From NCBI GenBank assembly GCA_963082975.1, contig OY720347.1, positions 16,691,187 to 16,755,186 of the forward strand: 64,000 bases of DNA. The letters are read 5' to 3'. The notes beneath the pieces are model-generated. The model saw only the letters and a list, made by a program, of their open reading frames with translations. It was not told where the DNA came from and did no database searches. The stretch comes from Labia minor (taxonomy: Eukaryota; Arthropoda; Insecta; Dermaptera; Spongiphoridae). Each line of letters opens with the position of its first letter. The first letter of the stretch is position 1. The position numbers and the translations under genes are program-made. Shown piece after piece: positions 19,294 through 61,726 of this stretch.

Positions 19294-19326
19294 GCGTAAT
19301 TAAGAAACGCCAACATCTTTCTTATT

Positions 19327-23922: not shown

Positions 23923-24654
23923 TCATGCACTTGTTTCAATTTCTAAGTTTTTTAATTGTAATAAAGCTTCTTTTACTGTAGAAGTTAAATTATTATATTC
24001 ATAAGCATTTGGCTTTTCAATAGATTTTAAATTAAACAATTGATCAATTAAGTTAAAAACAATTTTTCTATAATTGTAATACTTATCTTTTAATAAAGAA
24101 ATGGCTATTTTAAAGTTATCATCTGTGGTGGTTAAATGTTGAAGCAGATTGAATGGCTCGTCGACTAAATATGATTTTAAATATTGTAATTTCTGTGCGT
24201 CGCTTAACATTTTATTTGACGTCACTGCAGCATCGAATTGGTTCATAAAGGCCATGTATTCTGTGTGTTTACCATTGAAGGTTGGAAGATTCAGTTTTGG
24301 AAGATTCACTAAATTTGAATTAAATGGATTATTAATATTAGCATAATTATTTATAGATTCTGATGTTTCCGTTTTAATATACAATTCATTTGGCAATGAA
24401 ATAGATAACTTTTTTAACATCAACATTTCACTATTAGAAATATCTAATATTTCTTGTATACAAGTATTTTCATCATCATTCAATTCATAAATAGATTCAT
24501 GCAATAGTTTAATATTATCTATTAATTCATCAATTTCATCAATTAATCTAGAATGATTAAATGGTCCCAAGGACTTTGATTCTGCAAATAGTTTTTGAAT
24601 ATTTTTAATAGGTAAATTAAGTTTTTTCCAATTTAATTTTATTTTTTCAGCCAT
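23923..24654 (-). CDS. BEL/Pao Gag N-terminal part, ended by in-frame TGA
   Basis: It starts at ATG 24654 in a good context (AAAATGG). 243 codons include the DUF1759-type gag segment (LPKLNLPTFNGKHTEYMAF, then LKSYLVDEPFNLLQHL and NAYEYNNLTSTVKEAL). It stops at TGA 23925-23923, yet the same frame continues without another stop to 19327. That makes one 1776-codon frame with one interruption. A single substitution is the simplest explanation for the TGA; programmed readthrough is not a known feature of this group. The protein would assemble the particle. Confidence 0.88.
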   Translation of the reverse strand: MAEKIKLNWKKLNLPIKNIQKLFAESKSLGPFNHSRLIDEIDELIDNIKLLHESIYELNDDENTCIQEILDISNSEMLMLKKLSISLPNELYIKTETSESINNYANINNPFNSNLVNLPKLNLPTFNGKHTEYMAFMNQFDAAVTSNKMLSDAQKLQYLKSYLVDEPFNLLQHLTTTDDNFKIAISLLKDKYYNYRKIVFNLIDQLFNLKSIEKPNAYEYNNLTSTVKEALLQLKNLEIETSA

Positions 24655-24756
24655 TTTAAATTAATATTAACTAAATATAGAAAATACAAATCTTTGTTCA
24701 ATAAAATATTTGGTCGCCACTAAGTGGATCCCTTGTATAAAATTCAAATCCAAATG

Positions 24757-24773
24757 TCCTGTCACGGTCGCCA
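24757..24773 (-). other. Primer-binding site (tRNA-Arg type)
   Basis: On the minus strand TGGCGACCGTGACAGGA lies 16 bases inside the 5' LTR. It is complementary to the 3' end of an insect-type arginine tRNA (..TCCTGTCACGGTCG plus CCA). The same site is common in BEL/Pao elements. Confidence 0.8.
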
Positions 24774-24789
24774 ATAAATTTTTTAATTA

Positions 24790-25470
24790 TGTTTAAGCCA
24801 AAAGATTAGATTTTTCTTATCCAAACTATGAAGTAACCGTGTTTTTAATCTCCGAAGAAGTCAGTCCCGTTTGACTGGTATTGGTATTTGAAATAACAAA
24901 AGATTCACGTTAGAATTTAGAAATTATGTAATACAAAAAGAAAGAAAAGAAATTATATTTTAAATCAATTTAATTTATTTATTGAACAAAGATGATAGAA
25001 TTAAATAAAACTAAATACATTCGTTGTCTTCTCTTGAGTCACACTTTTGTATTAGAAATTTACAATTATCTTAAAATTTAAATAAAAAACAATTACAAAA
25101 CAAGTAAAATAAAATTATACTTAAATTAACTTTAATGATGAGGTGCAGAGACTCGTCGTGGAATAGCTGGTGCTTTCTGTTGACCAAGTCAACGTATATT
25201 CAATTACTCAACCAAGTTGAGAGAATCGGACAAAATGGCTAACCAAGTCAGCTATGAACAAACCCAAGGTTTGCAAGATGTTTCCTATTCGATGTCCCGA
25301 AGAGAAGAGAGAGAGAATTTTCTCGATAGAGTAAAACAGTAGAAAAAAGGAAGGAACAAAGAGTGCGTTCCAAAAGTTATTAACTTCTCGAGGAGCACAA
25401 CTCTGGCTTCCACCCATAGAACCTAAGCGCCAATTATAAAAAGTTTCAATAAAGCAAATTGGCTTTGACA
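24790..25470 (-). repeat. BEL/Pao 5' LTR
   Basis: 681 bp, identical by eye to the LTR at 18599-19279. On the minus strand it contains a TATAATT box downstream of its start, a plausible core promoter. Confidence 0.95.
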
Positions 25471-27080: not shown

Positions 27081-30000
27081 CTAATAATTGTATAAAAGGA
27101 AATGAAACAAAAGATTTACAAAATCTCCTTGTAATTTTAATATCCTTATTTTTTTAAATAGTATTTATTGAAATGATAAAACAAATGGACAATTTCCATG
27201 AATTTTAAAATGTTTAAAATATTGTTTTAAATGAAAATAATTATATGTTTACATTACCGACCAAGTTTCGTTTAACGGACGACTACCTGAAGAATAATTA
27301 ATTACTCAGTAAAGGAAAGTTAACAAAAACTCTTTAGAAAACGAAACTGCCCTTTCAATATCGATATTGGAGCAATGATTTATTTGCTGAATGCCAAATG
27401 AAAGGAATGCTATAGTTGTTCAGTTTCCCGAGGGTTGGAAACTAAATGAACAACCCAAGGTCAGAGAGATTTTTATTATATTTTTAATGTTATTGAAATT
27501 CAATTTTAAAGTCAAATTTAGTTATTTCTCATATAGAAGCTAATAAACATCATTAGAATTAACAGAGAATCATTGGAGATGGGCCAAATGGTGCTAGAAA
27601 GTAAATCAGATAAATAAATAAATAAATGAGATGATTGACGGCCATTAAATTAAAATGAACACAATTTATAGCTTTAACAACTTGAAATGTAACATAAATT
27701 CTTTTATTTTAGAAAAATAACAAAAAAAAAATGAATGAAAGTTTTTCATGATGCCAATTTTCGAAATTGAAGGAAAAATATTAATATAAATTAATTTTTT
27801 TTTATTCCATTAAATCCTCTAAATAAGTAACACTCACTATCCATATTCTCCTTGATACAAAGGTATAAGTGGGCAAAAATGCCCAAAAAGAATGTAAAAG
27901 TATGCAATTAGCAGGAAAGGTTCCTGTGCCTGTTTGAATACAATTTTTTAATGGAAGTGGTAAGAGCGCCGATAGTAGCTCAGGTGATTTCTTTGTTGCC
28001 GTAACTTCTTCATCTCTTATAAACTATTAAAAGTAAAAAAGGTTTCTGTTTATGTTGTCTGGATCTTAATTTCTCGGTTAGAAGCGTTAGAAGTCACTTT
28101 AAGAAATTGTAAAAATTGTAAATCTTATAAAAACAAAGATAATATAAATTAGACTAGCAACTGTCAAATTATGGACTTTCCAATTTGTTGTCCTAAAGAG
28201 GGTGCTTTGTTTCTTAGATTTGAAATTTGATTAATTAAAAATATAAATTGTACATGTATAAATAAAAATACGAGAAATAATAGTTTTAAAAATTAACAAA
28301 ATAATATATAGATGAATAATTATTTTATAATATAATTACATAATATTATTTATTTAATTAAAATTAAATATTTAATATATATACAATATAACAAATATAA
28401 TATATATTTTAATAATATTTAATAGTCATTTAATATAATAATCTTATATCATATAAATATAAATTTTCCTTAAGTAAATTGATGTTTTTTCAATATTATT
28501 AAGGGATCCCCGAGCGTATTTTCAATAAAATGTCAAACAAGTTGAAAATATTTCAATATTATTAAGTTATTAAATATTATATTAATTACTCTTATATATA
28601 TATTCTTCTTCTTTATAATAGGTATTCAATTATATATACTATATAATAGATTATTTTTTATTTTTAATAAAAATAGCAAATATTGTGAAAGTTATTTGTT
28701 TTAAAATATAAAATATATGATGTTAAAGTTTGGATTAGAAGAATTCGGCGAATGATTTGCAATTTTGTTCCAATATTCACTTAATGATTAAGATATTAAA
28801 ATTCAGGTAAGATATTATTTAGGAGGACATTTTATTCAAATAATGATATATATTTTTATAAATATAAGTATTTTACATGATTATAAAAGCAAACTAAAAT
28901 TAAGCATTTATTTGTTTTAGTATAAAAGTATGGATCCCACTCTCAGAAATTATTTTTCTCTGTTATTTTTAAGTGGAAAGATTACCAATACTTTTCTTCT
29001 CATGTCAACATCTCATGAAAACTTTTTTTCAAATTAGAAATTATAATTTTAATTATTTATATTTTTTTTTTATTTAACTTCCAATGAAATACATGAATTC
29101 CACATCTGCCTTATTTGAGGCAATAGAAGAACATTTACAGGTAGAATTATTTATATAATAAAGAATGTGAAACTTTAAATTAAATTGAGAAAAAATAAGT
29201 TAACAAATCATTTAACAATCTAATCAATTAGTACATTATTTGTATTATCTTATAATATATATATATATTTATAAATATAGGTATTTAGATGTTGAGAAGA
29301 GACAAGATAATTCCACATTTATAACACAAAAATCTGTTTTAATTTAAAATAACAGAAAAAATCATCAATCAGATTCTTCTCGATTTATTTTCAAGAAATA
29401 TAATCTTAATAATATTTGGCTTAATTTTCAAAATCCAACTTGAATTGTTTCATTTCTCATATATAAACTTATATATTGAATTAATAATAAATACATATAT
29501 TTAGGTCATTTTGTTTGTCTAGAATTTAATTGTTTTTAATTTGTTGCTTTCTTTTAGTTTTGCTAACTAATTCTAGAGGATTGGTTTATGAATGATTGAT
29601 ATGATCTGAACAATGTGTCATGTAATGACAAAAAATATTATAACACATCCAGAAATTATTCTTACTACAATTTATCAGAAAGTTAATTTAAATTTTATTC
29701 AATATTAATAAAATTTTAAACAAATATCTACATAATTGCATAATACTTGTCTAATATTTTTCTTAACTACAATATTTTTTATTAAAATGAAAATAAAACT
29801 TCTGAGACTAGGTTTGAATTAGATGAAATAATGTTGCTATTTATGAAAATTATTACTAATTTTATAACTATATAATAATAATAGTATTTCAATTACATAT
29901 ATTTTTTTTATGAAATTCATCAAAATTATATTGCTCACAATAAATTTACTTAAACAACTTTTTTTCTTTGGAACTTAAGTATATAGATGAACAAACAAAT

Positions 30001-31438
30001 CATAAGTACCAACCAATTTCAAAAATATTAATTCTAAATATTTTACTTTAGATATATTCTTATTAAAAATTTGAAGCTTCAAACCCTTCCTAGAGAAAAA
30101 TGAAAATTCTCGATTGAAGTGCTTGAATCATACTCTTAGGTATCTATATCTATACATCTATTATATTTAAATTTATCATATATCATTTTAAAATTTTTTA
30201 AAATTTTTTTTTTAAGATTAAAAAAATCCAAATACACAAAAAAAAGTATAAAAAATCGTCATGGAGAAAATTCCAAGTTAGAAAAATATTTTATAATTAT
30301 TAATTGATTAGATTAGTTTATTCATTGTTTAATTACGTTATATTGATATTGGACTATTATTCAATTATTAATTAAATTTTAGAATCCTATAACTTAATTG
30401 TCTTTTTATTTAAGGAATTTCACAAATAATTTTGATATGTTAAAAAATTATAATTTATTTTCTTAAATGACTTGTTCTTTTAATAATTATGACACAATAT
30501 GGTAAATAATATATAATTATATTTAATATGAAATAAAAAAAAATAATAAAATAATTAATAAACTAACTCTATTCTGTTTAGTGAAAATCAAATAAAATAC
30601 TTATATTTATCAATTTATTAAATAAAAATTAACTACTGAAATTCCACTCAAATAAATAATGTCACATACTAAAAAGTGGACCTATCTGTAAGTATGTATA
30701 AAACTAGTGAATGTAAGTCCTGCTATGTTTTTACAACTTACAAAAACAACAGAAATCATTTTTACAAAAATAATTATTATATGCTTGAAGTAATAAGAAA
30801 CCTAAACAACTTTATTAGAGTATGTATACCTTTACAATACAATACATTTCTATCAATAATAATTTAAATAAGCAACTGTATTAAACCTGAAAATATCTTT
30901 ATTTTCAATTTAATTTAATTTTTTTTAAATATCTTAATTTTTTATTTATAATTTAAGTATGCAATAATTTCTTACAGATCTATATCAAAGAACTTTTTAA
31001 ATTTTAGATTGGAACTCTACCTTCGAATAAATATTATTAGGAAATTTTTTGATCATTATTATTACTATTCAAAATGTATGTAAATAATTTTAGTTTTTGT
31101 TATTCATATCTTGCCAAACTCCTTTCTATTAATAATAACTTGAATATACAATGAAGGGTCATTTGTAATGTTTAATGACAATTATATTAACCACAAGCCA
31201 ACAAGTGATTTGTGATTATTGTCCAAGACTAATTAGTCAATTAAATATCGTTAAATTATATATAAAAAATACCATAATAATATGAATTGAATTATCAAAT
31301 TAAAACAGTTATGTTAGTATTATTCTAATCATTAATTTATTATTAATAAACACATATTGAAATAAAGAAAAAGAAAAGATGTTATGTAATATTTAGGTAT
31401 AGAAATCGAAATTGACATTCTATAAAAATATTGTTAGT
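27081..31438. other. Long AT-rich stretch without a supportable gene
   Basis: Nothing was recognised over 4.3 kb. One segment, about 27800-28035 minus strand, stays free of stops for roughly 75 codons (it includes IQTGTGTFPANCILLHSF) in less AT-rich sequence. It has no ATG near its start and no known motif, so it is noted only as a weak exon candidate. Confidence 0.35.
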
Positions 31439-31439
31439 C

Positions 31440-31615
31440 TAAGGATGCTGTGGGTGGACATTGTAGGAAGGGACGTGAGTGAGATGGGGGAGGGTAGGTG
31501 TTGGATGGTTGTGGCTCAGAGACACTTGGAAAAATATGGTTCTTGCAGCCAAGAACTTTCTAGTTGCGTAAAGCCACAGAGATAGATAAATATATATAGA
31601 TATAAAAATATTATA
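31440..31615 (+). pseudogene. LINE RT C-terminus (RTE/CR1-like), relic b
   Basis: The plus strand reads RMLWVDIVGRDVSEMGEGR and, after shifts, LAAKNFLVA before CCACAGAGATAGATAAATA, matching relics a, c and d. It is 5'-truncated with a GATA/TATA tail and is dead. Confidence 0.6.
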
Positions 31616-31619
31616 AACA

Positions 31620-32605
31620 TTCATAATTTAAATGTTTTATGAAAAACATACTGATATTTTAATTTAATTTTGCTTTAAAAATCTTTTAATATTAGTTTGT
31701 TTGTATTTTTTAATTTTTAAAATGATTTTCAATATTTAATTTATATTAGTATTCATTATTCTACACCTAAAATGATAAATAAATAAAAAATTCATTTAGA
31801 AAGGAGAAATTCTAAGACACTAATTAAATTATAATATTAATGTGTGTTTTTAATATTTTATTGTTTTTTTAAATAAGGTCTATATTATTGAGGTTGATAT
31901 ATATAATATAATTTGTTTATTAATATTATTCATTTAATTTATGCAAACCCTAAAGAAGAGTGTATCATGACTTATATTGTATTCAAGAGTCGTTATAATT
32001 TTATTAAAAATTCATAGAACACAATATATACAAATTCCAATTAAGTCAATACTATAAAATTACAAGACTATTAAATAATTGATATATATATATATATCAA
32101 TCCATAACAAGTTTTTCAGGTTATATTTTTAATTTGTCAACAGTTTTATTTGAATAGATATCTATTATATTAGATAGGTTAAATATAATGAATAAATAAA
32201 ATGTTAATCTATTTTTATCTAAAATAATGAATATATTAAGAATTTAGTACTACTTGGATAATAAGAAAATTATTTTTAAAAAATTTAATAAATACTTAGA
32301 TAACTTAAATGATAAATTAATATTAATAAAGGATAAGGTAAAAATAAATATAAATGCATATAATTGATTTTTTTTATAAAACTAAATACCTATTTCTGAA
32401 TCTTAATTACACAATTTTTTAAATTATTTAATGATAAATTTTAATTTCATTCTTTACAAAGATGAATGCAATAGAATATAAATTATTATTTTTATTTATA
32501 AAATAGAACATTATACTAAAATTAATATAATTTTTTAATTTATTTGTAATAATTTCAGAAGAGCGCCAACTTTTTATCTTCTATTCTATCCATATAATTA
32601 TAATA
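31620..32605. other. AT-rich sequence, nothing recognised
   Basis: No supportable feature. Confidence 0.45.
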
Positions 32606-33001
32606 AATCTTATCTTATTATGCTAGCTAAAATTGTATATATGTATTTATCTATATATATTGGTTCTCAAAAACCGCTCTAACGATTTTTTTCAAATTCA
32701 CACTAGATATAGTATTTATAAAGAAAAATTAAGTTTTATTGATGATATCTCTTGAAACATGCAGCTTCATTATTAATTTCTTAATTGAAAATTATATATG
32801 GAAAACGTCAAAATTTTTAATACTGCCTGCTAAGACAGTAAAAAAATGACAATTTTTTATCTAAATACATATAGTCCAGCGGTTGGACTGATGTTTTAAC
32901 GAGTGGATTTCGTCGGTTCGAAACTCGCCGGGTGAATCGTTATTTAAAAATGAAAATAATGATTTTGTTATTTTTTTTTCTTTTTATCTATTGTTTACTT
33001 T
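32606..33001 (+). mobile_element. Diverged partial Helitron-like unit next to the left arm
   Basis: It begins with the same head as the inverted-repeat arms (TCTTATTATGCTAGCTAAAA, preceded by A) and follows arm sequence through CTCAAAAACCGCTCTAACGA. It then skips about 125 bases present in the arms, continues with GCCTGCTAAGACAGTAAAAA and a tRNA-like segment at about 32872-32940, and runs straight into the arm at 33002. It differs from the arms at scattered bases, so it is an older relative rather than part of the recent duplication. Confidence 0.75.
32872..32940 (+). repeat. tRNA-like segment with B box
   Basis: TAGTCCAGCGGTTGGACTGA resembles an A-box region and GTCGGTTCGAAACTCGCC contains a near-consensus pol III B box (GGTTCGAAACTC). 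Stem pairing is poor, so this is a SINE-like or tRNA-derived module within the Helitron-like unit, also present in each large arm. Confidence 0.45.
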
Positions 33002-33287
33002 TTAATCTTATCTTATTATGCTAGCTAAAATTGTATATATCTATCTATCTATATATATTGGTTCTCAAAAACCGCTCTAACGATTTTTTTCAAATTCACA
33101 CTAGATATAGTATTTATAAAGAAAAATTAAGTTTTATTGATGATATCTCTTGAAACATTCAGCTTCATTATTAATTTCTTAATTGAAAATTATATATGGA
33201 AAACGTCAAAATTGGCCTCCATTTTTATTTGTATTAATATTTTTTTTTATTTAAAATATTTTAAAATTTATTATTTAACCCCTTAAC

Positions 33288-33405
33288 GTGCACGCTCGAA
33301 TATACTCGAGCGCATCAAACTGGCCTAAATGTGCACACTCGAGTTAACTCGAGCGTCAGCGCATTTTATTCTACCTTAATGTTTACACTCGAATATATTC
33401 GAGGA
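33288..33405. repeat. Three palindromic repeats in the piggyBac 5' subterminal region
   Basis: CGCTCGAATATACTCGAGCG (about 33293-33313), CACTCGAGTTAACTCGAGCG (about 33335-33356) and CACTCGAATATATTCGAG (about 33386-33403) share the palindrome CTCGA-R-TWWAY-TCGAG at roughly 45-50-base spacing. The right end lacks an obvious match. They could be transposase binding sites; that role is inference. Confidence 0.7.
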
Positions 33406-33945
33406 TTGAAATTAATTATATAAAAACTGGGATACAAGTCTGTTTTTTTAACATAAGTCATATATCGGTCCACATTGTAATCTCTAAAACTTTTTTTTAA
33501 GAATTAAATATAGCCTTTGAAAATATCCCGACATTTGGTAGAATATAATTTACTAAAATAAAATGTAAAATAAAATAGTAAATATCTATTATTTTTTACC
33601 TACTTAACACTCTTTATGTCGGCACTTTTATGATCCTTTTATTGACTAATTTATGCCGCCACTTGTCTACTTGTTGTTTACTAAATTTTTATACACGTGG
33701 TTTCCAATATAGAAACAGAAATATTTGAGTCAGTCTTGAAAACAGTGGACGTTATCAAAGTAAATTTATACAAAGACAATTGTTTGTTATCTTTTATAGA
33801 TATTATTAGTGGTAAAATATATAAAGATATAATATAATTGATATTTACTGTAAAAAAGGGTACGTTTCTTACTGTTCAAATAAAAATTACTATTTTATTT
33901 TAGATTTTATTTTACATTTTATTTTAGTAAAATATATAACGAAAA

Positions 33946-35586
33946 ATGACGGATTCCGAATCTGAATATGAATACGCAAATTTGTCAGAAAGTGGTTCAG
34001 AAGATTCTGATATTTATTCCAGTGATTCTGAAGATAGTTCAGATGAAGATATCGCTGTTGATTGGAAGCAGATAAGCGATAGCCAACCAAATCCACCTCC
34101 ACCAAGATTTCAATTTGTTGCCACTCCAGGTACAACTTTTCTTTTTGAAGATAATTTTGATGTACTGGAGTATTTCAAATTATTTTTTGATGATTCTCTG
34201 TTGGATATTATTGTATTGGAGACGAATAGATATGCTGAACAACATCCTGGTAGATCTACCATTCAATGGAAAAATGTCGACAAAAATGAAATAATGATAT
34301 TTTTTGCCATCTGTATACTTCAGGGGCTTATCAAAAAACCAGAAGAAAGAATGTATTGGTCAAGTAATGAAATGTGGAGTACTCCTATTTTTCCAAAATT
34401 GATGAACCTAAGAAGATATATTAGTATAAAAAGGAACTTACATTTTAGTAACAATGAAACATTTGACATAAATACACATCCCAATCCAAAGCTTTGTAAA
34501 ATTTGGCCCATTTATGAAATAATAAATAATAAATGTTCTAGTTTATATATACCAGAAAGGGATATAACAATTGATGAAAGCCTAATGCTTTACAAAGGTC
34601 GATTAGGATGGATGCAGTATATTCCACTAAAAAGAGCGAGATTTGGAATAAAATTGTATTATTTGTGTGAATCTAAAAGTGGCTATCTTTTTTCTTTTAT
34701 TATATACACAGGGAAAGGCACAATAATAGATGAGAAATATAAAGATATGCCGGTTACATCTCAAATCGTCGTATCGTTACTAGAACCCCTTATGAACCAG
34801 GGCTACTGCCTCACCACTGACAATTATTATACTTCACCACAATTGGCAGATTTTTTAGTAAATCATAAGACGGACACATATGGGACTGTTAGAAAAAATA
34901 GAAAAGATATACCAAAATCTATTCAAACAAAAAAATTAAAAAAGGGTGAGATAGTAGCTGCTCAACGAGGAAAAGTAATGGTAATGAAGTGGCAAGACTA
35001 AAGAGACATTTGTTTGTTATCTACAGTTCACAGTACGGAAAAAGGAACAACAAATAAAACAGATAAAGATGGCAATGTTATATTTAAGCCAAAACTAGTT
35101 ATAGATTATAACGAAACGATGGGAGGCGTTGATCGTCTAGATCAACATTTACACGATTATCCGATTATTAGAAAGAGGGGCAAAAAATATTATAAGAAAT
35201 TATTTTTTCATTTGTTAGACATATGTATTTGGAACGCTTTTGTTTTGTACAAGAAAAATGGAGGTGAAAAATCTAATTTAGATTTTAGAAGCAAACTGGT
35301 AGAGAGACTTATTCAAAATTACCATAGTGAAATAAATATAAAAAAATCAGGTAGACCAAAATCTTCTGGAATCTTACGACTAACAGAACGTCATTTTCCC
35401 AGTTTTGTTCCACCAACGCCAAAAAAAGAAGCGCCCACAAGATATTGTGCTGTGTGCTGTTCCAAAACAGATAATAAGGGAAAAAGAAAAAGAAAAGAAA
35501 GCCGTTATATGTGCAATACTTGCAATGTTGGGCTATGTGCTGCACCTTGCTTTGAAATCTACCACATGAAAGAAAATTTTGAATAA
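33946..35586 (+). pseudogene. piggyBac transposase with one in-frame TAA
   Basis: ATG 33946 opens a 547-codon frame that is uninterrupted except for TAA at codon 352 (34999-35001); the frame continues to the stop at 35584-35586. The N-terminus is acidic and serine-rich (SESEYEYANLSESGSEDSD). The DDD catalytic residues are in ITIDESLMLYKGR (D210), CLTTDNYYTS (D292) and MGGVDRLDQ (D396), spaced as in known piggyBac transposases. The end carries the cysteine-rich cross-brace domain (CAVCCSKTDNKG, CNTCNVGLCAAPC). Role: cut-and-paste transposition at TTAA sites in the nucleus. The stop falls before the third catalytic aspartate, so this copy cannot make a complete enzyme. Confidence 0.95.
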
Positions 35587-36068
35587 TTTGTTGTAATTTT
35601 ATTATTTTTTGTTGAAAATGTAGGTACAAATAAAAATTGTCGTTGTTAAAAAGATGTTTTTTTTTCAAAATAGTATAAATTTATACCTGTAAAAGAAAAA
35701 TAATAGTAAACTTATGGGTAAAACTACAACATTCGATCTGCAATGCGAATCAAAATACATTGAAATTAATTATTCACTATTATTATTAAATTTTGAATGA
35801 TTTTTTATTTTTTTTTTAATTTTCAGCCAAAATAATGTTCAAATATGTATTTTCTGAAATAAAAAAAAATGATTTTTTTTGGCTGTTTTTTTTCAAAAAA
35901 AGTGTGCGTTAAGGGGTTAATTTCGAAATAAAATTAAAAATATTTATTTTTAATAAAATATATATAGATATTTATTAATCTCTCTCAAAAAAAAAAATAA
36001 AATAAAAAACATCAAATCTGCCTGCTAAGACAGTAAAAAAATGACAATTTTTTATCTAAATACATTTA

Positions 36069-36134
36069 GTCCAGATGGTAAAGTGATGTTTTAACGAGTG
36101 GATTTCGTCGGTTCGAAACTCTCCGGGTGAATCG
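36069..36134 (+). repeat. tRNA-like segment in the left arm
   Basis: TAGTCCAGATGGTAAAGTGA (A-box-like) and GTCGGTTCGAAACTCTCCGG (B box) lie about 35 bases apart. The corresponding inverted copy in the right arm spans about 43192-43261 on the minus strand. Stems are imperfect; probably a tRNA-derived SINE-like module. Confidence 0.45.
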
Positions 36135-37232
36135 TTATTTAAAAATGAAAATGAAAATGAAAATAATGAATTTGTTATTTTTTTTCTTTTTATCTATTGT
36201 TTACATTTTAATAAATTACTATTTTATATTTATTTATTCATTGTTCTTTTATTAAATTTAATATTTATTAATATTATTTATTATTAATTTATATATTGAT
36301 GACATCACAAATGACATTTATATTGAAATTTGACTCCCGCCTTTTTTTAAAGAATATTGTATTAATATTTTTTTTATATTTAAAATATTTTAAAATTTTT
36401 TATTTAATTTCGAAATAAAATTAAAAATATATATTTTTTTTATATTTAAAATATTTTAAAATTTTTTATTTAATTTCGAAATAAAATTAAAAATATATAT
36501 TTTAATAATATTTTATAATTATAAATTACGATATATATTTATCAATAATAATGAATTTTTTTTTTTTAACTTAATTACAGAGCCGAGGCTCGGGGTCCCG
36601 GTATGATCTTAATATATTGTGAGAATTAGATAAATAATGTAGAGAGAAAAAAATATTTAAAAATAGATATTTATTTAAATGAAATAAAATTATTTAATTT
36701 ACAGAATGAAAATGTCTATAATAATGTCTAAACATTTTTTCTTTATAATTTTACATTATAATAATACTAATTACAGTAGTTATAATATATGGGGAATTTT
36801 CAACTTTGACTGCCGATTTGACCATGTTCCCAAACGAATTTTAAAAAAACCAAGACCACTCTACATTTATTTACACATTTTAAGCTCTAATCGAATCCAA
36901 AATCAAAATTTAAAAAATCGAAAAACAAACTCACAGATATATAGATTTTATAAATGAACATTTATACAATTTATTTTAATTAATTTGAAACATTTTAGGA
37001 AACAAATTTTTAATGGGTCATTTTTAGAAATCCCATTTAACAATTATAATAAATAATTAAAAAATTGTAAAATTTTTAAAGTATATAAAAATAAATTGTA
37101 TAAATTGGTTAAAGGGTCGAGTGATAGTTCGGTGTCCCAGGTATATATTTTATATTAACACGCCTACTTTTCTGTATAATAAAGATATAAAGAATCATAT
37201 TTTAATTTTTATATAACCAAGAAATCATTTTT

Positions 37233-37352
37233 TCACTTAAAATATAGTTGTAAAGCCCAAATCTCCGATCCATATAACATCATCGACTGGGCCGCTACCA
37301 AAAGGAGTCTTCTCTTGCTCTGACTAGGGCCACCGGTATTTGCCATTAGTCT
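37233..37352 (-). pseudogene. R1-type LINE RT fragment (left arm)
   Basis: The minus strand encodes RLMANTGGPSQSKRRLLLVA followed by AQSMMLYGSEIWA and a stop. The NxGGP-S-KRRLL and LLYG-IWA signatures are typical of the RT thumb region of R1/LOA-clade LINEs. Only 39 codons remain. Confidence 0.75.
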
Positions 37353-37876
37353 CGAAAAAATAATATTAAATTTTATATAAATTTATAAATTAGAATATTT
37401 GAATTTGTTTAAATTTTAACACATGTAATCAATCATATGCATAAAGAATAGAAAATTTTGAAAATCAACTTGGTATTAAATTCAGAAAAAAAAAATACTC
37501 ATATATAGAATATATAGACTATTCGAATATAATTGAAACTCTTTCTCTCCCTCTATTTTAAATTTGAAAAAACGGAGTGTTAAGAAATTAAGATTCCTTA
37601 TACAACATGGATGGTTAAATGAATTGGGCTCCCTACCTCCCTGAGAAATTCACATTAAAAATGTTTATAATATTTTAGTTTATTAAATCAAACTATTATT
37701 TTTTTATTTCAATATTTTTAATGTTAATACAATAATTTTTATTTTATAATCTATAAAATAATTTAATTATTTTTAAAAACAACGGTCTTCAATTACAATT
37801 TTTTTACTCTCTACTGACTGTTCATTTCATAACTGAAAATAGTGTCGAATAGAAATAGACGATATTACTTGGATTA

Positions 37877-38042
37877 ATCTTATTATGCTAGCTAAAATTG
37901 TTTGTTTGTATTATTGAGGACCCCAGTTCAATTCATTTTAATCAGATTGATGCAATGATGCAACATTTAATAATTGTAATAAATAATTAATTGTAGATTA
38001 ATATTTTTTAAAGGGTCGAGCGACAGCTCGGTGTCCCAGGTA
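37877..38042 (+). mobile_element. Short Helitron-like unit (166 bp)
   Basis: Head TCTTATTATGCTAGCTAAAA at 37877 (preceded by A) and hairpin tail ending GTCCCAGGTA at 38042 (followed by T) bound a compact non-coding unit. It is the shortest head-to-tail pair in the arm and so the best candidate for a minimal mobile unit. The inverted copy lies at about 41286-41451. Confidence 0.5.
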
Positions 38043-38331
38043 TTAATATTACCAGCCAAACCCAATAATAATGAATCATTTTTTTTAACTTAAGTACCGA
38101 GCCGAGGCTCGGGGTCCCGGTACTATATATTATATTTAAAATATATAGTTAATCTTATTAAAAAGCTTATAATATAATAAAATCGATTTTAAAATTATTT
38201 TGTTATAAGAAAGGAAGGAAAAAAAATTTAAATTTAAAATTCATTATTTATATTTATTTTTGTTTTGTGTTTTTTGTTTTGTCTAGAAACTAGCAGTAGT
38301 AAGTACAATTTTAAAATGTGATTATAGGAGC

Positions 38332-38680
38332 TGAAAGTAAATTTAGAGTATTTGAAAATAGGGTTCTTTGCAGCATTTATGGGCCAAAGAAAGATGAAGG
38401 GACTGCCGGAGACTGCATAATAAGGAATTGCATGACTTCTATGCATCCCCAGAAATAGTTAGGTTTATAAAATCGATGGGCAGGGCACATGGCTAGAATG
38501 GGTGATGATAGAATATCCAAGGTGGGCAGATAATGTTGTAAAGGACGGAGGAGAGATGGAAGAAAATTGGAATTGGAGCTGTAGCTCAGAATAGAGACAC
38601 TTAGAGAAACGTGGTTGCTCCAATCAAAAACTTTCGAGTTCCGTAGAACCACAGAGATAAATATGTAGGGTCGTTTCATA
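38332..38680 (+). pseudogene. LINE RT C-terminus (RTE/CR1-like), relic c
   Basis: The plus strand reads FRVFENRVLCSIYGPKKDEG, then NRWAGHMARMGDDRISKVGR after two stops, and later VVAPIKNF-like codons ending with CCACAGAGATAAATATG. The FENRVL-IYGPK and RWAGHMARMG motifs are characteristic of the ORF2 C-terminal region. This is the longest of the four relics. It is broken by stops and frameshifts. Confidence 0.8.
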
Positions 38681-38783
38681 AATAAAAGATATAGATGCGC
38701 GTATTAATAAAATTCATCAAAAGGAACAAAAAAAATATAAATAATTAAATCTTGAAATATATTGATGGATATCTTAAACAGGT

Positions 38784-39069
38784 TGTTCGTTTGGCTTTAA
38801 CTGATTAATCTTGAATCATACTAACTGACTAATACACTATTAACACACTAATTTCTGGAGATAGTACGCTGATATTTATACGCGCTGTTCCGTCGTCGCA
38901 TTCTCGATGACGTCAGCGGTGTCAACTCCAGCGATTAAACAGAATGGGGCGTGTCTTTTGGGGGTAAATAGCAGGCGCGAGAGACGATATAAAGATTTTG
39001 GAGGGGGAAACGAAGCTGCCAGTCATACAGGTTGAATAGGAGATGAACTTAAGGAAATAAATAACAACA
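38784..39069 (-). mobile_element. LTR-like segment (probable solo LTR fragment)
   Basis: On the minus strand the segment starts TGTTGTTATTTATTTCC directly after a purine tract AAAAGGCGGTA, includes a GCGTATAAATATCAG promoter-like box and a CRE-like TGACGTCATCG, and ends GCCAAACGAACA. TG..CA ends and a purine tract fit a 286-bp 3' LTR with a little internal sequence. A second LTR is not seen. Confidence 0.4.
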
Positions 39070-39084
39070 TACCGCCTTTTAATT

Positions 39085-39205
39085 CCTACAACTTGGTCCT
39101 CCTGAATTTAGGAGTTGGATGGGTGTAGCTCAGAATAGGGACATTTAGAGAAATGTGATTGCTGCGGCCAAGAAATTTCGAGTTGCTTAGAGCCATGCAC
39201 ATTTG
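39085..39205 (+). pseudogene. LINE RT C-terminus (RTE/CR1-like), relic d
   Basis: GTTGGATGGGTGTAGCTCAG AATAGGGACATTTAGAGAAA followed by GCGGCCAAGAAATTTCGAGT repeats the 3' coding end seen in relics a-c (VAQNRD, AAKKFRV). It is very short and truncated. Confidence 0.55.
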
Positions 39206-39240
39206 ACACAATAAACAGACTGAATATATAAATATATATA

Positions 39241-39415
39241 TATTATTATCAGATTTATCCGGGATATATCGACTCTTGGTCACACAGACTAAGACCCAGA
39301 ATCCCAAAAATATTTCCGCCTAAATAACCTCTTGAAAATGGCGCTAAAATGTGTGCCGAAACGTCGAGAAAATAATTTCACAAAAATACGTGATTATATA
39401 AATCTGATAATAATA
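39241..39415 (+). ncRNA. Hammerhead-ribozyme-like core between 18-bp inverted repeats
   Basis: Positions 39241-39258 and 39398-39415 are perfect inverted repeats. Inside, at 39329-39368, the parts stand in type-I hammerhead order: CTC (stem I), TTGAAAAT (in place of CUGANGA), GGCGC-TAAAATGT-GTGCC (5-bp stem II with loop), GAAA, C, GTC (cleavage triplet) and GAG (stem I). The CUGANGA box differs at two bases (C to T, G to A), so self-cleavage is doubtful now. Minimal hammerheads with almost no stem III are known from Penelope-like elements and retrozymes, where the phrase CCGAAACGTCG recurs. I read this as a relic of such an element. Confidence 0.4.
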
Positions 39416-39425
39416 ATAATAATAA

Positions 39426-39660
39426 TAACATTCACGGAAATCTAAATCAACATATATATAGATAGATAGATAGATTTTGTGGATTGCTTAGGAATACAAT
39501 TTTCTCCAAATGCAGCACCTGTGGCAAACACCATCCTTCTGGTTCGCTGAACCCCTACCGCACCAGGTAGCATCCACTTTGAGAATCAATGGTGTAGACC
39601 AAGACTTGAGTATTCCGGTCCCTTTTATTAGGAAGTATTATAATATATAAAATGTGTAGA
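39426..39660. other. Mixed repeat debris, possible MITE end
   Basis: A GATA microsatellite (39458-39474) is followed by less AT-rich sequence ending ACTTTGAGAATCAATGG near 39576-39592, which resembles a degenerate hAT MITE right end. No left end or duplication could be matched. Confidence 0.3.
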
Positions 39661-39717
39661 TCAAAAGAAGATTAAATTGTTTTTTTAAAAACAGTTTCGT
39701 CAATTTCGAAACCTTAA

Positions 39718-39719
<2 letters not shown>

Positions 39720-39756
<37 letters not shown>
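39720..39756. repeat. (TA)n microsatellite
   Basis: About 18 uninterrupted TA units, the longest in the window. Confidence 0.95.
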
Positions 39757-39760
<4 letters not shown>

Positions 39761-41200
39761 TATTGTAATATATAGTCATAAAAATACCCTTTATTAAAGA
39801 AAAATAGTGAAAAACGGCAATATATTCTAAGGGGAAGTATTTTCATTCGAGTTTTCAAAGCAAATACACGTTTTAAGGAATTCTGTGTACAAAATAATAA
39901 TAATAATATATATATATATATACATATAAAGTATGAACGATATTGATAAGAATTTAAAGTGAAAAATGAAATATGTTTTGTTAAAATTGTGTGATTATAT
40001 CGCATTAGCTATTTTTAATAGGTTTTCTTCTGCTCACATTCTATGACTTTCTTGAGGACCTTTCATTAAAATATTTTCTCTCACTTTTGAATGTGCTTAA
40101 AAATGATAAAATTTTCTCTAAGCTTTTTTATTGACAAAACGTTAATTAATAAAAATAAATTTATTAAAACTAAATATTGTTTTTTAAAAAAATTAAATTT
40201 TCCTTAATTAAAATAAATAGAAAAAATAATAAATCATTTGAAAATAAAACTAATGTTTAATTAAATTTTATTAAATAAATAGTAAAAAATAATTCTCTTC
40301 AAACAGAACTCAACCTTTCGTTTTATTCACATTTTTAAAAACGGACTAAATATATATTATAGAAAAATTAAAAGTTAAATTTAACAATACAATACAATTA
40401 TATTACGCATAATGTGAAGTTTGTAAGATACCCTCTGATTTACCTGTTATTATAATCTTTCATTTTCATTCATTGATGACTTTTTTAAAGTAAAAAAAAA
40501 CAATTATGATTGTGTATTGATAATTCAGCTAATCCCCTATTTCCTAAATAAGATAAGGTTTATTTTATTTTTAAATATCAATACTTATATACCTGCTAGA
40601 TTCAAATATGTATATAAAACTTAAATTTAATATAGCCAGAAGACGACAATAATTTAGAATTAATATTAATATTAATAAAATATATGAAATTAAAAAAGAT
40701 AATTTAGGACCGAAACACATAACCCTAACGTCATCATCGCTTGGATGACCCTGAAAATTTCCTCTCAAAGGAAAACCAACCAAAGTATTAATTTGATAAA
40801 CATATATGTTTCTGACACTGTTTAACTATAATATATTATATTATGATTAATTTTATCTCAAAATAGTTAAATGTTTTTTTAATTTGTATTTCTTATTTAA
40901 TGATTATTTAATATTTAATACATAATAATACAATAATTAGGTGTTCAACAAATAGTTATAATTAAACTATTTAATATAGTAATTTATTATTCAATTGGCA
41001 GTTTTCAATTTTAAAACATTAAATTAGATTTTATCATAATTATAAATATATGTATATCGGTTTCATATGTTAAAAATTATATAATTAATATTCATGTAAT
41101 ATAATAGTGGTGTTTTATTAGTAAGATATGATCGAGATATTTTTACTCTACACAATATTATAATAAATTAACCCCGTTTTCTTTTATTCTTATTACTTAT
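39757..41200. other. AT-rich spacer of the inverted repeat, nothing recognised
   Basis: The right half of the palindrome spacer has no supportable gene. Confidence 0.4.
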
Positions 41201-43683
41201 TAGTACCGGGACCCCGAGCCTCGGCTCGGTACTTAAGTTAAAAAAAATGATTCATTATTATTGGGTTTGGCTGGTAATATTAATACCTGGGACACCGAGC
41301 TGTCGCTCGACCCTTTAAAAAATATTAATCTACAATTAATTATTTATTACAATTATTAAATGTTGCATCATTGCATCAATCTGATTAAAATGAATTGAAC
41401 TGGGGTCCTCAATAATACAAACAAACAATTTTAGCTAGCATAATAAGATTAATCCAAGTAATATCGTCTATTTCTATTCGACACTATTTTCAGTTATGAA
41501 ATGAACAGTCAGTAGAGAGTAAAAAAATTGTAATTGAAGACCGTTGTTTTTAAAAATAATTAAATTATTTTATAGATTATAAAATAAAAATTATTGTATT
41601 AACATTAAAAATATTGAAATAAAAAAATAATAGTTTGATTTAATAAACTAAAATATTATAAACATTTTTAATGTGAATTTCTCAGGGAGGTAGGGAGCCC
41701 AATTCATTTAACCATCCATGTTGTATAAGGAATCTTAATTTCTTAACACTCCGTTTTTTCAAATTTAAAATAGAGGGAGAGAAAGAGTTTCAATTATATT
41801 CGAATAGTCTATATATTCTATATATGAGTATTTTTTTTTTCTGAATTTAATACCAAGTTGATTTTCAAAATTTTCTATTCTTTATGCATATGATTGATTA
41901 CATGTGTTAAAATTTAAACAAATTCAAATATTCTAATTTATAAATTTATATAAAATTTAATATTATTTTTTCGAGACTAATGGCAAATACCGGTGGCCCT
42001 AGTCAGAGCAAGAGAAGACTCCTTTTGGTAGCGGCCCAGTCGATGATGTTATATGGATCGGAGATTTGGGCTTTACAACTATATTTTAAGTGAAAAAATG
42101 ATTTCTTGGTTATATAAAAATTAAAATATGATTCTTTATATCTTTATTATACAGAAAAGTAGGCGTGTTAATATAAAATATATACCTGGGACACCGAACT
42201 ATCACTCGACCCTTTAACCAATTTATACAATTTATTTTTATATACTTTAAAAATTTTACAATTTTTTAATTATTTATTATAATTGTTAAATGGGATTTCT
42301 AAAAATGACCCATTAAAAATTTGTTTCCTAAAATGTTTCAAATTAATTAAAATAAATTGTATAAATGTTCATTTATAAAATCTATATATCTGTGAGTTTG
42401 TTTTTCGATTTTTTAAATTTTGATTTTGGATTCGATTAGAGCTTAAAATGTGTAAATAAATGTAGAGTGGTCTTGGTTTTTTTAAAATTCGTTTGGGAAC
42501 ATGGTCAAATCGGCAGTCAAAGTTGAAAATTCCCCATATATTATAACTACTGTAATTAGTATTATTATAATGTAAAATTATAAAGAAAAAATGTTTAGAC
42601 ATTATTATAGACATTTTCATTCTGTAAATTAAATAATTTTATTTCATTTAAATAAATATCTATTTTTAAATATTTTTTTCTCTCTACATTATTTATCTAA
42701 TTCTCACAATATATTAAGATCATACCGGGACCCCGAGCCTCGGCTCTGTAATTAAGTTAAAAAAAAAAAATTCATTATTATTGATAAATATATATCGTAA
42801 TTTATAATTATAAAATATTATTAAAATATATATTTTTAATTTTATTTCGAAATTAAATAAAAAATTTTAAAATATTTTAAATATAAAAAAAATATATATT
42901 TTTAATTTTATTTCGAAATTAAATAAAAAATTTTAAAATATTTTAAATATAAAAAAAATATTAATACAATATTCTTTAAAAAAAGGCGGGAGTCAAATTT
43001 CAATATAAATGTCATTTGTGATGTCATCAATATATAAATTAATAATAAATAATATTAATAAATATTAAATTTAATAAAAGAACAATGAATAAATAAATAT
43101 AAAATAGTAATTTATTAAAATGTAAACAATAGATAAAAAGAAAAAAAATAACAAATTCATTATTTTCATTTTCATTTTCATTTTTAAATAACGATTCACC
43201 CGGAGAGTTTCGAACCGACGAAATCCACTCGTTAAAACATCACTTTACCATCTGGACTAAATGTATTTAGATAAAAAATTGTCATTTTTTTACTGTCTTA
43301 GCAGGCAGATTTGATGTTTTTTATTTTATTTTTTTTTTTTGAGAGAGATTAATAAATATCTATATATATTTTATTAAAAATAAATATTTTTAATTTTATT
43401 TCGAAATTAAATAATAAATTTTAAAATATTTTAAATAAAAAAAAATATTAATACAAATAAAAATGGAGGCCAATTTTGACGTTTTCCATATATAATTTTC
43501 AATTAAGAAATTAATAATGAAGCTGAATGTTTCAAGAGATATCATCAATAAAACTTAATTTTTCTTTATAAATACTATATCTAGTGTGAATTTGAAAAAA
43601 ATCGTTAGAGCGGTTTTTGAGAACCAATATATATAGATAGATAGATATATACAATTTTAGCTAGCATAATAAGATAAGATTAA
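41201..43683 (-). repeat. Right arm of the large inverted repeat
   Basis: 2483 bp, the reverse complement of 33002-38125 without the piggyBac. It keeps the uninterrupted TTAA target (near 43400), the mirrored hairpin tails, the tRNA-like segment and the R1 fragment. Sequence diverges immediately outside both ends. Confidence 0.92.
41974..42093 (+). pseudogene. R1-type LINE RT fragment (right arm)
   Basis: This is the inverted copy of 37233-37352 with the same 39 codons and stop; it is part of the duplicated arm. Confidence 0.75.
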
Positions 43684-44242
43684 GTAAAATTAATCATTAA
43701 TAATTTATTGGAATATTCAAATTCTAAATAATTATAAATAAATAAAAAATATTAAAATATATGTATATCTAAATTATATAAATATAATACTGATCATCAT
43801 AAGTGGTGACACTAATCATTATATCTATGCAATTAAATTTTATAATAAGTCATAATTCAGAAATTCAATGTATAATATATACATAGGTATATATATATTA
43901 AAGTATGACTATATATATAGTATGGATAGAACGTTATGAATTTACTCTCTCGCTCTTACTCTTCCTCTATGTCGTAGAATTATAATACATGGTCCTCGTT
44001 CATTATTGGCAATATTCCCAAATGTTTATGAATTAAGAGTAGTACAAATGAAAAAAAAAACAAATAGCACATTTGCCTGCGCCAAATTTCAAATAAACAT
44101 AAATTTTATTGCATAAAAAAAGAACATAAACTTTGTATAAATATTGATTTAAAAAAAAAAAGATTCAAAATCATTTTTCGATTATAAATTATGTTTTAGA
44201 AATAGCAAATTAATTCGAAAAAAGCTAAGTAGAAGCCTAGAT
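43684..44242. other. AT-rich sequence, nothing recognised
   Basis: No supportable feature. Confidence 0.45.
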
Positions 44243-44545
44243 CAGGGGTGAGCAATCCGCGGTTCGTCGAACAGATTTGTACGGCCCGTCAAGTCTAATT
44301 GTACAATATAATTTATAATTTTATTGGTATCCTCAACTTATGATTTCTGTTAAGTTAAATTTATATTATAAAAATCGCTACAATAATGCAACCATTTTTC
44401 TATATCTTGAAAGAGACATGTATTATGTGTATTATGTGAATTGTTCATTAAATATTTAAGGTTTAATAGTTTTTTTTGTCTGCGGCCCGCCAAGAAATGT
44501 CAAACCTTCGCTTGGCCCGTTGATAAAAAATGTTGTTCACCCCTG
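44243..44545 (+). mobile_element. hAT MITE, CAGGGGTGAGCAA termini
   Basis: The left end is CAGGGGTGAGCAATCCGCGG and the right end TGTTGTTCACCCCTG. Flanks GCCTAGAT and GATTAGAT match at 6 of 8 bases, an eroded target duplication. The interior has GCGGCCCG blocks. It is non-coding. Confidence 0.8.
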
Positions 44546-45512
44546 GATTAGATAGATTTCTTATTATTTATTTTTTTTTATTTATCTTATGCAGAATTGA
44601 AATAATATGATATTTATACATGTTTTTTCAATTCAATTACTTTAACCAATTTAGTCAATTCTTTGTTATATCAATTTATATAATCTGGATATTATAGTTT
44701 TAAGTTAATACATATATATTAAAGGTAAATGTTTTTATTGTAGCCCTTTTCAAGGACTGATTACTAATCTCGTAAATGTAATTATTGATTTTAATTACTT
44801 TTGTTTTTCTTTCTAATAAAATATATATGGATTCTTTTTTAAATTTTGACATTTGTTAAAATAGGTCATGAAGATAGCAAATATAAATTCAAAAGGTTAT
44901 TAATTATTATTGCCATATTATTTTTATATATAAATTTCCTAAAATATGTTTATTAAATATATCTTAATTAACAGTTTATTATATTAATAATATAAATTAA
45001 CAATTGCATATAAGTTGTAAATTCCGAAAAATATTGAAATATAATAATTTAATATATTATTATATTTATTATATAAAATTATATAAACTAATATATTTTA
45101 CATTTGAATAATTACAATTTTTCAAATTCCTCAATCAACTATTCTAATTTCACTTATATTTTTTTTTTATTTCAGTCATTTATTTAAAATATATTTTTAA
45201 TAAACGAGCAATATATAATATTTATCTAAAATGAAATTTATTGAACATTAGTTGATTTAGAATATATTAATGGAGGGTGGAGGGAACGAAAAGATTGGAT
45301 CCTAACATGTATTAAAATAAAGAATTTTATTTTAAATTATAATTATTTATAATAAACCAAAAATATAATTTTCCGAAATTAAAATTGTATTATTGTATTT
45401 AGTGAATGACTTTGATGTAAGTATGTGATGTATAATTAACCAAATTTTTTTTTATACTATTCATAAAACCTCAAGATGAAACAGAGGCTGTCGGAATGGT
45501 GTCAATGGAGAA
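44546..45512. other. AT-rich sequence, nothing recognised
   Basis: No supportable feature. If the exon at 45517 is real, this holds its 3' flank, including AATAAA-like signals. Confidence 0.4.
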
Positions 45513-45516
45513 CCGA

Positions 45517-45605
45517 TTAATGATCTAAGGCGGTATCAACACGACATCCGGTCTCATTGAATGGCACTGTGATCCTGAAGTCGGTTTGAAATCGGTCCCA
45601 GAGGT
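45517..45605 (-). CDS. Candidate terminal coding exon, protein not recognised
   Basis: On the minus strand an acceptor-like CCTTCTCATATATTGAAG is followed by a frame reading LWDRFQTDFRITVPFNETGC then RVDTALDH and TAA (45519-45517). C-rich third positions (TTC, ACC, GAC, GGA) contrast with the AT-rich surroundings, as expected for a conserved exon. The exon starts with two bases of a split codon. About 29 codons are too few to name a family, and no upstream exon was found. It could be a 3' exon of a gene lying to the right on the minus strand. Confidence 0.45.
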
Positions 45606-45958
45606 CTTCAATATATGAGAAGGAAAAACATTACCCTTAAAATAAAAGACTCAATATAAAAAGCAAAATAAAAAACTTTCTATGTAATTGCTTAAGATAA
45701 AATTTACTTTATTTTAGATATAAATATATTCGTATTCATAATAGTTGAAGACTGCTTCTTTTATTCTTATGAATTGAAACTTGAATTTAGAAAATTGACC
45801 TTTAAGGTCTTTTCCTTTAAATTTTATTTAATGAGTTGAAATATAACATATTGTTAATATAGGTAATTGTTTTATTATATTTAATATTAATTTGATTTCG
45901 TTTAAATGTTTAATTCTTCTAGACATTTATTTATTTCCAATATATATATATATATATA
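45606..45958. other. AT-rich sequence, nothing recognised
   Basis: It would be intronic if the exon at 45517 belongs to a gene on the minus strand. It ends in a TA microsatellite. Confidence 0.35.
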
Positions 45959-46427
45959 TGTTACGGTAAATGTACACTCTTGGGAAATGTACACATTTTC
46001 CGGTAAATGTGTACATTTCCCAAAAAGTTAGGTATATGTGAACTGAATATAATGTATATGTACATATACAATATTTTTGTTTTTTGTGATACAATCTGTT
46101 CTAGTTGGTTTTTAAATTTTTCTTTTTGTTCCATTGTTTTTCAAAAATTCTAACTAAAAAATAATTTTTTGTAGAAAAATTAAAATTTTAACTTACCTGA
46201 GTCTTATTTCTCTAAATATCTTAAATTATATCAGTATACTATGGCATTAATTAGTAATCTATGCTCACATTTACCAAAACGACATGGTCATTGTGAATTC
46301 AATGTACATTTCCCTTATTTGAAATTGTAAATGTTAGTTGAATGCACATTACCCAAATGAGGAGGCTAATGTGCACATTTACCGGAAAATGTGTACATTT
46401 GCCACAATATCTACTTTTACCGTAACA
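45959..46427 (-). mobile_element. Ginger-like MITE, short derivative of the 15.3-kb element
   Basis: 469 bp with the same termini (TGTTACGGTAAATGTACACT and CTACTTTTACCGTAACA) and the same right subterminal block (ATGCTCACATTTACCAAAAC, GACATGGTCATTGTGAATTC). Nearly all coding sequence is gone. It sits in TA repeats with TATA on both sides, as does the longer copy. Confidence 0.85.
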
Positions 46428-46441
46428 TATATAAGATAATA

Positions 46442-46530
46442 CAGTCAAACCTCGATATAGCGGATCTCTATTTAACGGAATTCGGATATAATGCAAAAAA
46501 AAATATTAATATTATAATTCTAATATAATG
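46442..46530 (+). mobile_element. Pogo/Tigger-type terminal fragment
   Basis: After TA at 46440-46441 comes CAGTCAAACCTCGATATAGC, then GGATCTCTATTTAACGGA, a typical terminus of pogo-like elements. No matching opposite end was found within the next kilobase, so only the left end is claimed. Confidence 0.55.
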
Positions 46531-47905
46531 CATGTTACATCTCACATCAGATATTTTAAAAAAAATTTTTTGTACCTACAGTTAGAAAATTTCAATAGAA
46601 GAAACTGAAAATACCGCCTTGAAAAGATGTTTATTGATTACATTCTGGAGGACAATACTTAATGCTGCAGCAATACAAAAGAAGTACTAGGAAAAAATGA
46701 AACTCATATATTTAGATTAATACTTGGTTCAGCCAACTGGTAATAGTATAAATGGTATTGCAACCATGTAGAATATTTCAAACTCGCAATCATCTCTCGC
46801 ATGTAAATCCCATCATTATTAATTTATTACTTATTTATATCTTTTAAATATAAAACTATTATTGAAATTTTATATTTATAACTATTTATATTGTTATATG
46901 TTTGTTTATATTATATATAATAATATATGTTAGCTTATAACAATATAGTATACAATCCTCCATTAAAGTATATATAAATATATAATAAATAAATAGGTGA
47001 CAATAAAGCAGGAAAAAATATTAGATAGATTAAGCTTTTCTAAATTTTAACAAATGCGGATTCCAATTTATTAAACCTTTATGCATATTAAAACAATCTG
47101 AAATTCCAATATCCATGTTAATATGGTCTGTATCTCATCCTCTTTTGGTATCCTCCATTTACGATCATTAAACTTTAAAAAAAGGGACATGGCCACTCTC
47201 ACCGATAGATACAATAGGATTATATGAAAATTGTGACTTTTGTGACCGTGATTTCACAAAGACCAACCAGCGGGTTGGAATCAGTAATTAAGTTACCAAC
47301 CTATTTTCTATGGTAAAACCTTATTTCAATTTTATTTGACTAGAAATTTAGTTTCAATTTATAAAATAACTTATTAAAATATTTTAAATTTACATTTTAT
47401 AAATATGTTTTAATTTTAGCAATAGAATATCTTTAAATTATTATTAAAAATTAATATTATTTATTTATTTATATTTATAATTTGCTATATTATATATTTT
47501 AGATGGTTGTATAGAGGAACCGATGAACAACTAAAAATAAAAAAATATATAATCATTGTTTCTAAATTTTTATTTAACTACTAAAACTAAAGTATATGTA
47601 TTGTATATGTGAGTAAAATATTCAAAATTTATGTAAAAGTGAGTAAGTGGGTGACGTGTTGAGCTGTGAGCCTGTATATGAAGTCAAAATTTTACAATAA
47701 TTACTAATTACATTTTAAAACAATTTTAATATCTATTTTTGTAAAATTTTGATTTTTATCATTCTTAAAAAAATTGAACAAGCCTAATAATGCTATATTA
47801 AAATCACTAAGCAAATTTTGAAAAGTTGAGCAAGATTGCATACTAAAAAACATAAATTAAGATTTAGCTAATTTTAACTTTTGCGAAGTGTTTTATTATT
47901 GAAAT
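46531..47905. other. AT-rich sequence, nothing recognised
   Basis: No supportable gene. A less AT-rich patch at 47150-47290 has no recognisable coding content. Confidence 0.4.
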
Positions 47906-61706: not shown

Positions 61707-61726
61707 TAGTTAAGTCATATATAATT

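Follow-up and report, generated by a model that had tools for sequence, protein, structure and literature searches.

A near-perfect 2.48-kb inverted repeat in the genome of Labia minor, probably formed by two recent and opposite copies of one mobile element

A long, near-perfect inverted repeat was confirmed in a 64,000-nucleotide stretch of DNA (the window; 25% GC) from contig OY720347.1 of the Labia minor assembly GCA_963082975.1, and all positions given here are counted from the first letter of that window. The palindrome probably represents a 2.48-kb composite, non-coding element present in two recent copies, placed 3.07 kb apart in opposite orientation, and as such it documents recent mobile-element activity in the AT-rich genome of an insect. 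This simplest explanation, two opposite copies of a mobile element of which one was later hit by another, is ordinary for such a genome, and the palindrome needs no function of its own. Inversions can arise between identical inverted pairs of this kind, and the structure would gain greater weight only if the element makes local inverted pairs more often than chance genome-wide.

Structure of the inverted repeat

The left arm, with an inserted piggyBac element removed (2482 nt), was aligned globally with the reversed right arm (2483 nt). The alignment contained no substitutions and one 1-nt indel, the lone difference being an extra A within an A-run. Self-BLAST paired 35917-38129 with 43410-41198 (99.9%, 0 mismatches, 2 gap openings) and 33002-33278 with 43683-43407 (100%), and a search for inverted repeats returned 35987-38125 with 41201-43339 (2139 nt, 100%, 3075 nt between) and 33002-33278 with 43407-43683 (277 nt, 100%). 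A preliminary description of this DNA had reported a near-perfect 2.48-kb inverted repeat with ends that break off sharply on both sides of a 3075-bp spacer. Its coordinates proved to be exact, 2482 of 2483 positions align, and the substitution count of zero leaves no substantial divergence between the arms; inspection of the junctions placed the breaks in identity at 33002/43683 (outer) and 38125/41201 (inner). Single motifs of 17 to 24 bases from the arms, counted individually and not as a whole arm, are expected on average 0.00 to 0.02 times when the window is shuffled, and a chance origin of the repeat can therefore be discounted. The parts of the structure are as follows.

33002..33278, plus strand: left arm, outer part, running from the 5' end of the element (unit A) as far as the piggyBac insertion; 100% identical to 43683-43407 reversed
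35917..38125, plus strand: remainder of the left arm, closing with the GC-rich 3'-type end H1b (self-BLAST and alignment)
38126..41200, no strand assigned: spacer of 3075 bp with old, diverged repeats (Pfam scan and repeat comparison)
41201..43683, minus strand: right arm, the second copy of the 2.48-kb element, in opposite orientation and without piggyBac (self-BLAST and alignment)

Other repeat pairs recorded in the window are a direct pair of 174 bp (98.9% identical, 16821-16994 and 46260-46433) and inverted pairs of about 290 bp (86% identical, 1349-1640 and 61720-62007) and about 200 bp (82% identical, 4228-4433 and 13218-13404).

The piggyBac insertion

The left arm is interrupted by a transposon of 2646 bp, both TTAA copies counted, and at the corresponding place the right arm has an empty site with a single TTAA.

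33275..35920, plus strand: piggyBac element with TTAA on both sides, 14-bp matching ends (TTAACCCCTTAACG) and a transposase frame with one in-frame stop (Pfam and alignment)

The transposase was recognised as DDE_Tnp_1_7 in two pieces (E 3.5e-72 and 2.5e-14) with the in-frame stop between them, and a zf-Tnp_2 match (E 1.1e-08) was also present in the insert. The first piece matches the piggyBat transposase (PDB 9c0f, E 9.8e-40); against a collection of viral contigs it gave two pattern matches and no confirmed relative. The insert at 33275-35920 thus carries the features of a piggyBac element, namely the TTAA target duplication, inverted ends and a DDE transposase. It is incidental to the palindrome.

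The insertion does bear on whether the palindrome could have been produced during assembly. The sole difference between the arms, one base in an A-run, is of a kind that sequencing errors commonly produce, and this would suit an artefact. However, a spacer separates the arms, their outer flanks differ, and only one of them contains piggyBac, with clean TTAA ends, so that we regard an artefact as extremely unlikely. The one-sided piggyBac and the unique spacer had already been put forward in the preliminary description as arguments against a simple fold-back artefact, and they do count against it.

Organization of the arm

From outside to inside, the arm consists of unit A, AT-rich repeats, unit B, and the GC-rich 3'-type ends H1a, H2a, H2b and H1b. 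The element starts with unit A (an A followed by TCTTATC...) and ends just past H1b (...GGTCCCGGTACTA). The following units and unit ends were located in the left arm and immediately beside it.

32606..32815, plus strand: A', a stand-alone copy of the initial 210 bp of the element, from arm position 3, with 3 differences in 210 (alignment)
32819..33006, plus strand: B', a copy of arm positions 373-570, with 10 substitutions, 176 identical positions and 14 gap columns (alignment)
36580..36603, plus strand: H1a, an internal GC-rich 3'-type end; mirror at 42723-42746; fold no better than shuffles
37114..37143, plus strand: H2a, a GC-rich end of the 3' type inside the arm; its 17-base core is mirrored at 42183-42199, and its fold does not surpass that of shuffles
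37874..37901, plus strand: A'', a second 5'-end-like motif; mirror of its 23-base core at 41425-41447 on the minus strand (motif search)
38013..38042, plus strand: H2b, a GC-rich end of the 3' type inside the arm, with a clear hairpin that 2 of 200 shuffles equal; its core is mirrored at 41284-41300
38099..38122, plus strand: H1b, the GC-rich 3'-type end with which the left arm closes on its inner side; mirror at 41204-41227; its fold is equalled by 19 of 200 shuffles

H1 and H2 have a common core that ends CTCGG-(G/T)-GTCCC-(A)-GGTA, with one base differing in H2a. Within the arm, both 5'-type ends and all four GC-rich 3'-type ends have the same polarity. A'' can be aligned to A from arm position 9 onward only. 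When the 23-base 5'-end motif was searched for in the window, all five matches fell inside 11.1 kb.

At the outer end of the arm, the match to A' begins at arm base 3 and runs for 210 bp, which indicates that the outer break is the start of a unit. At the inner end, H1a and H1b resemble each other closely as far as GGTA, 3 nt short of the end of the arm, indicating that this is the end of a unit. Both edges are soft to a small degree: the alignment of A' continues, with reduced identity (221 bp, 97.3%), for 9 nt outside the right arm's outer end, and H1a and H1b align loosely over some 15 AT-rich positions past GGTA (by BLAST to 38136). B' adjoins the left arm head to tail, with an overlap of 5 bp, and presumably resembles a piece of a tRNA-derived SINE. 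A and A' differ at 3 of 210 aligned bases and B and B' at 10 of 186 (Fisher p = 0.044); given this unequal divergence, the A and B parts may differ in history.

Because a Helitron has a hairpin about 11 nt before its 3' end, the four 3'-type ends were folded as DNA and each was compared with 200 shuffles, of which 128 (H1a), 67 (H2a), 2 (H2b) and 19 (H1b) folded at least as well. These counts support a hairpin clearly at H2b and weakly at H1b, and leave less evidence for hairpins than the folds had suggested before this control. Folded as RNA, the same ends gave -7.1 to -13.3 kcal/mol, values that carry no shuffle control. No functional RNA or tRNA was found in the window at Rfam gathering scores or by ARAGORN, and no relatives were found by DNA motif in collections of prokaryote genomes and viral contigs, a comparison that says little about insects.

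Spacer and flanking DNA

Stop-free stretches of at least 30 aa were scanned against Pfam, and none of the 79 (49 from the spacer and 30 from the right arm) matched a transposase or RepHel family. The scan yielded 10 families, one stretch each, at E values of 0.0013 to 0.09; the best was AAA_lid_8 (0.0013), and two helicase-named families appeared at 0.064 and 0.09. With 79 stretches scanned, these weak matches, the helicase-named ones included, were taken as chance. Three short peptides, one in the arm (41944-42090) and two in the spacer (38398-38493 and 38315-38455), have no Pfam match; they may resemble reverse-transcriptase ends, a putative likeness to LINEs. At the far end of the window, an open frame of 299 aa (63103-63999) that runs off the window also lacks a Pfam match.

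An old repeat family, with members 70-85% alike and in the same orientation, is represented in the spacer at 38522-38663 and 39109-39195 and outside it at 31450-31588 and 4522-4633. Comparison of the flanks (30000-33001 and 43684-46700) with the spacer gave just two matches (71 and 87 bp long, 77-79% identical), both between the left flank and the spacer. No direct repeat longer than 3 bp surrounds the whole structure within about 19-20 bp of each outer end. When the arms were considered singly, words of up to 5 bp were shared between the flanks (about 20 bp each side), and none of these was placed at both junctions.

Origin of the palindrome

The arms are identical, and both of their ends coincide with repeat-unit ends that occur at other places in the window. 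Together with the absence of a target-site duplication and with a spacer of ordinary old repeats in which no transposase could be recognised, these observations argue for two copies of one element. The palindrome had previously been treated as one structure; because the arm ends coincide with repeat-unit ends, two separate copies are simpler than one structure.

The shape of the locus, with long terminal inverted repeats around a central part, is nevertheless that of a single transposon of the Foldback or Galileo type, which would measure 10.7 kb (8 kb without piggyBac) and consist of terminal inverted repeats of 2.48 kb on either side of the spacer. In PMC4168063, one Galileo copy is described with inverted repeats of 4246 and 4680 bp, and about 89% of the D. 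willistoni copies with preserved ends have a target-site duplication of 7 or 8 bp. No such 7-8-bp duplication is present at 33002/43683, where the longest shared word is 3 bp within about 19 bp of the outer ends. None of the 49 spacer stretches matches a transposase, the THAP type included, which non-autonomous Foldback/Galileo copies also lack. In addition, the spacer repeats recur outside the structure, at 31450-31588 and 4522-4633, and the 5' end of the arm occurs alone, as A'. A Foldback/Galileo element was ruled out on the missing target-site duplication and a spacer that is not element-like, and we consider this origin very improbable.

A single event of another kind would be a local inverted duplication of a resident element, by break repair or template switching, with the second arm made from the first. 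Identical arms would be expected from this, and so would the clustering of ends of the same family within 11.1 kb. Both breakpoints, however, lie no more than 3 bp from repeat-unit ends, which a random local duplication or a fold-back should not respect on both sides, and no recognisable flanking DNA was carried along. An inverted duplication therefore seems distinctly unlikely.

If the palindrome does consist of two copies, the element would owe its copying to a rolling-circle transposase of the Helitron type, provided by another part of the genome. Its composite build, with two 5'-type and four GC-rich 3'-type ends in one polarity, could have arisen through reading past earlier 3' ends, and piggyBac would have jumped at a later step into a TTAA of the left copy only. 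What counts against two insertions is that A'B' adjoins the left arm exactly and that the 5'-end motifs are clustered within 11.1 kb. Such clustering is unexpected from independent insertions of a rare element, and suggests something local. The cluster of a head-to-tail 5'-end copy and two identical facing copies in 11 kb might then reflect local re-insertion of a rolling-circle element that leaves inverted pairs beside its parent. This would be unlike the behaviour of Helraiser, which showed no local hopping (PMC4778049), and we view it as a long shot.

Age of the arms and gene conversion

Zero substitutions in 2482 sites correspond to a 95% upper bound on divergence of 0.0012 per site. With an insect-like mutation rate of 2.8e-9 per site and generation, this bound allows the arms an age of up to about 216,000 generations. 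A BEL/Pao LTR retrotransposon is also present in the window (18597-25470, minus strand), with gag-like (DUF1759) and pol (Peptidase_A17, RVT_1, rve) frames and one stop between them. Its LTRs, at 18597-19279 and 24788-25470, are identical (683/683 bp). The youth of the arms is therefore unremarkable, and their identity does not call for gene conversion, since recency alone suffices, as the undiverged LTRs in the same window illustrate.

Alternatively, the pair could be older, its arms having been homogenised through gene conversion or template switching with each other. The edges of conversion tracts are often diverged, whereas the identity of the arms extends to the unit ends on both sides, and recency by itself explains that identity, as in the case of the LTRs. 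In favour of conversion, there are no substitutions over 2482 bp, the unequal divergence of A/A' and B/B' could be the result of patchy conversion, and template switching is described as homogenising the arms of short inverted repeats (PMC8604942). We judge this alternative to be unlikely, and recent copying remains the preferred account of the identical arms.

It had been proposed in the preliminary description that inverted copies of this length and similarity are unstable, so that recent formation or ongoing gene conversion is implied. Recency is borne out by the absence of substitutions; the inference from instability is overdrawn, in view of the undiverged BEL/Pao LTRs and of spacer data from yeast. 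For Alu inverted repeats in wild-type yeast, PMC10164571 gives a rate of rearrangement that is down 31-fold with a 1.5-kb spacer and 47-fold with a 20-kb spacer, relative to a 12-bp spacer. With a 30-kb spacer the drop is 71-fold, yet the rate is still above the spontaneous level, and spacing no longer matters when the inverted repeats lie within single-stranded DNA (PMC10164571). As these rates fall with spacer length, the argument from instability is weak for a spacer of 3 kb.

Comparison with known transposable elements

The insert in the left arm resembles the piggyBac superfamily in its TTAA target, matching ends, DDE_Tnp_1_7 domain and zinc finger, and differs in that its reading frame is broken by a stop. 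The palindrome as a whole is like Foldback/Galileo elements (PMC4168063) in that two long and almost identical inverted arms enclose a central part. It is unlike them in lacking a target-site duplication and a transposase match, and in that the spacer repeats are also found outside.

Among rolling-circle elements, the Helentron/HINE/DINE-1 group, as characterised in PMC4067079, shares several features with the arm, which is non-coding and AT-rich and has a GC-rich palindromic 3' end and a T-rich left edge. The first palindromic 5' motif of the arm, unlike that of the group, has no inverted copy near the 3' end, either as a 23-mer (up to 3 mismatches) or as a 13-mer (up to 2 mismatches). As for the 12-15-bp subterminal inverted repeats of Helentrons and HINEs, the one motif tried, of 13 bases (GCTAGCTAAAATT), had no inverted match in either arm at up to 2 mismatches. 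Helentron/HINE was set aside because the 5' motif does not recur in inverted form close to the 3' end.

Canonical Helitrons begin with 5' TC, end with 3' CTRR, have a hairpin near the 3' end and insert at A/T without duplication (PMC4067079 and PMC6544945). All four 5'-type ends in the window (left, right, A' and A'') read TC after an A, and no target-site duplication was seen within about 20 bp on each side. In place of CTRR, the four GC-rich ends of each arm all read GGTA, and the arm edges read GGTACTA followed by T and GGTACTA followed by A. A RepHel gene was not matched in the 79 stretches of the spacer and right arm. The arms had been described as built from Helitron-like units, and this is weakly supported: the TC after A and the lack of a target-site duplication agree with it, the CTRR end and a RepHel match are missing, and one of the four 3' folds clearly beats its shuffles.

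The closest parallels are with non-autonomous Helitrons that have shifted 3' ends, namely the read-through products of Helraiser (PMC4778049) and the insect Hel1 families (PMC6544945). The arm is like them in its TC after A, its GC-rich 3'-type ends, its lack of a target-site duplication, its several 3'-type ends that follow a single 5' end, and in that no coding capacity was found. It is unlike them in a 3' end of GGTA or GGTACTA rather than CTRR, a clear hairpin at only one of four ends, and no RepHel partner seen, the likeness being one of features. That the arm element is a Helitron is not established. In the bat Helitron Helraiser, transposition can read past the 3' hairpin and end further downstream (PMC4778049); a 5' end followed by more than one 3'-type end would be in keeping with such read-through, and it is a reasonable guess that the arm element works like a non-autonomous Helitron.
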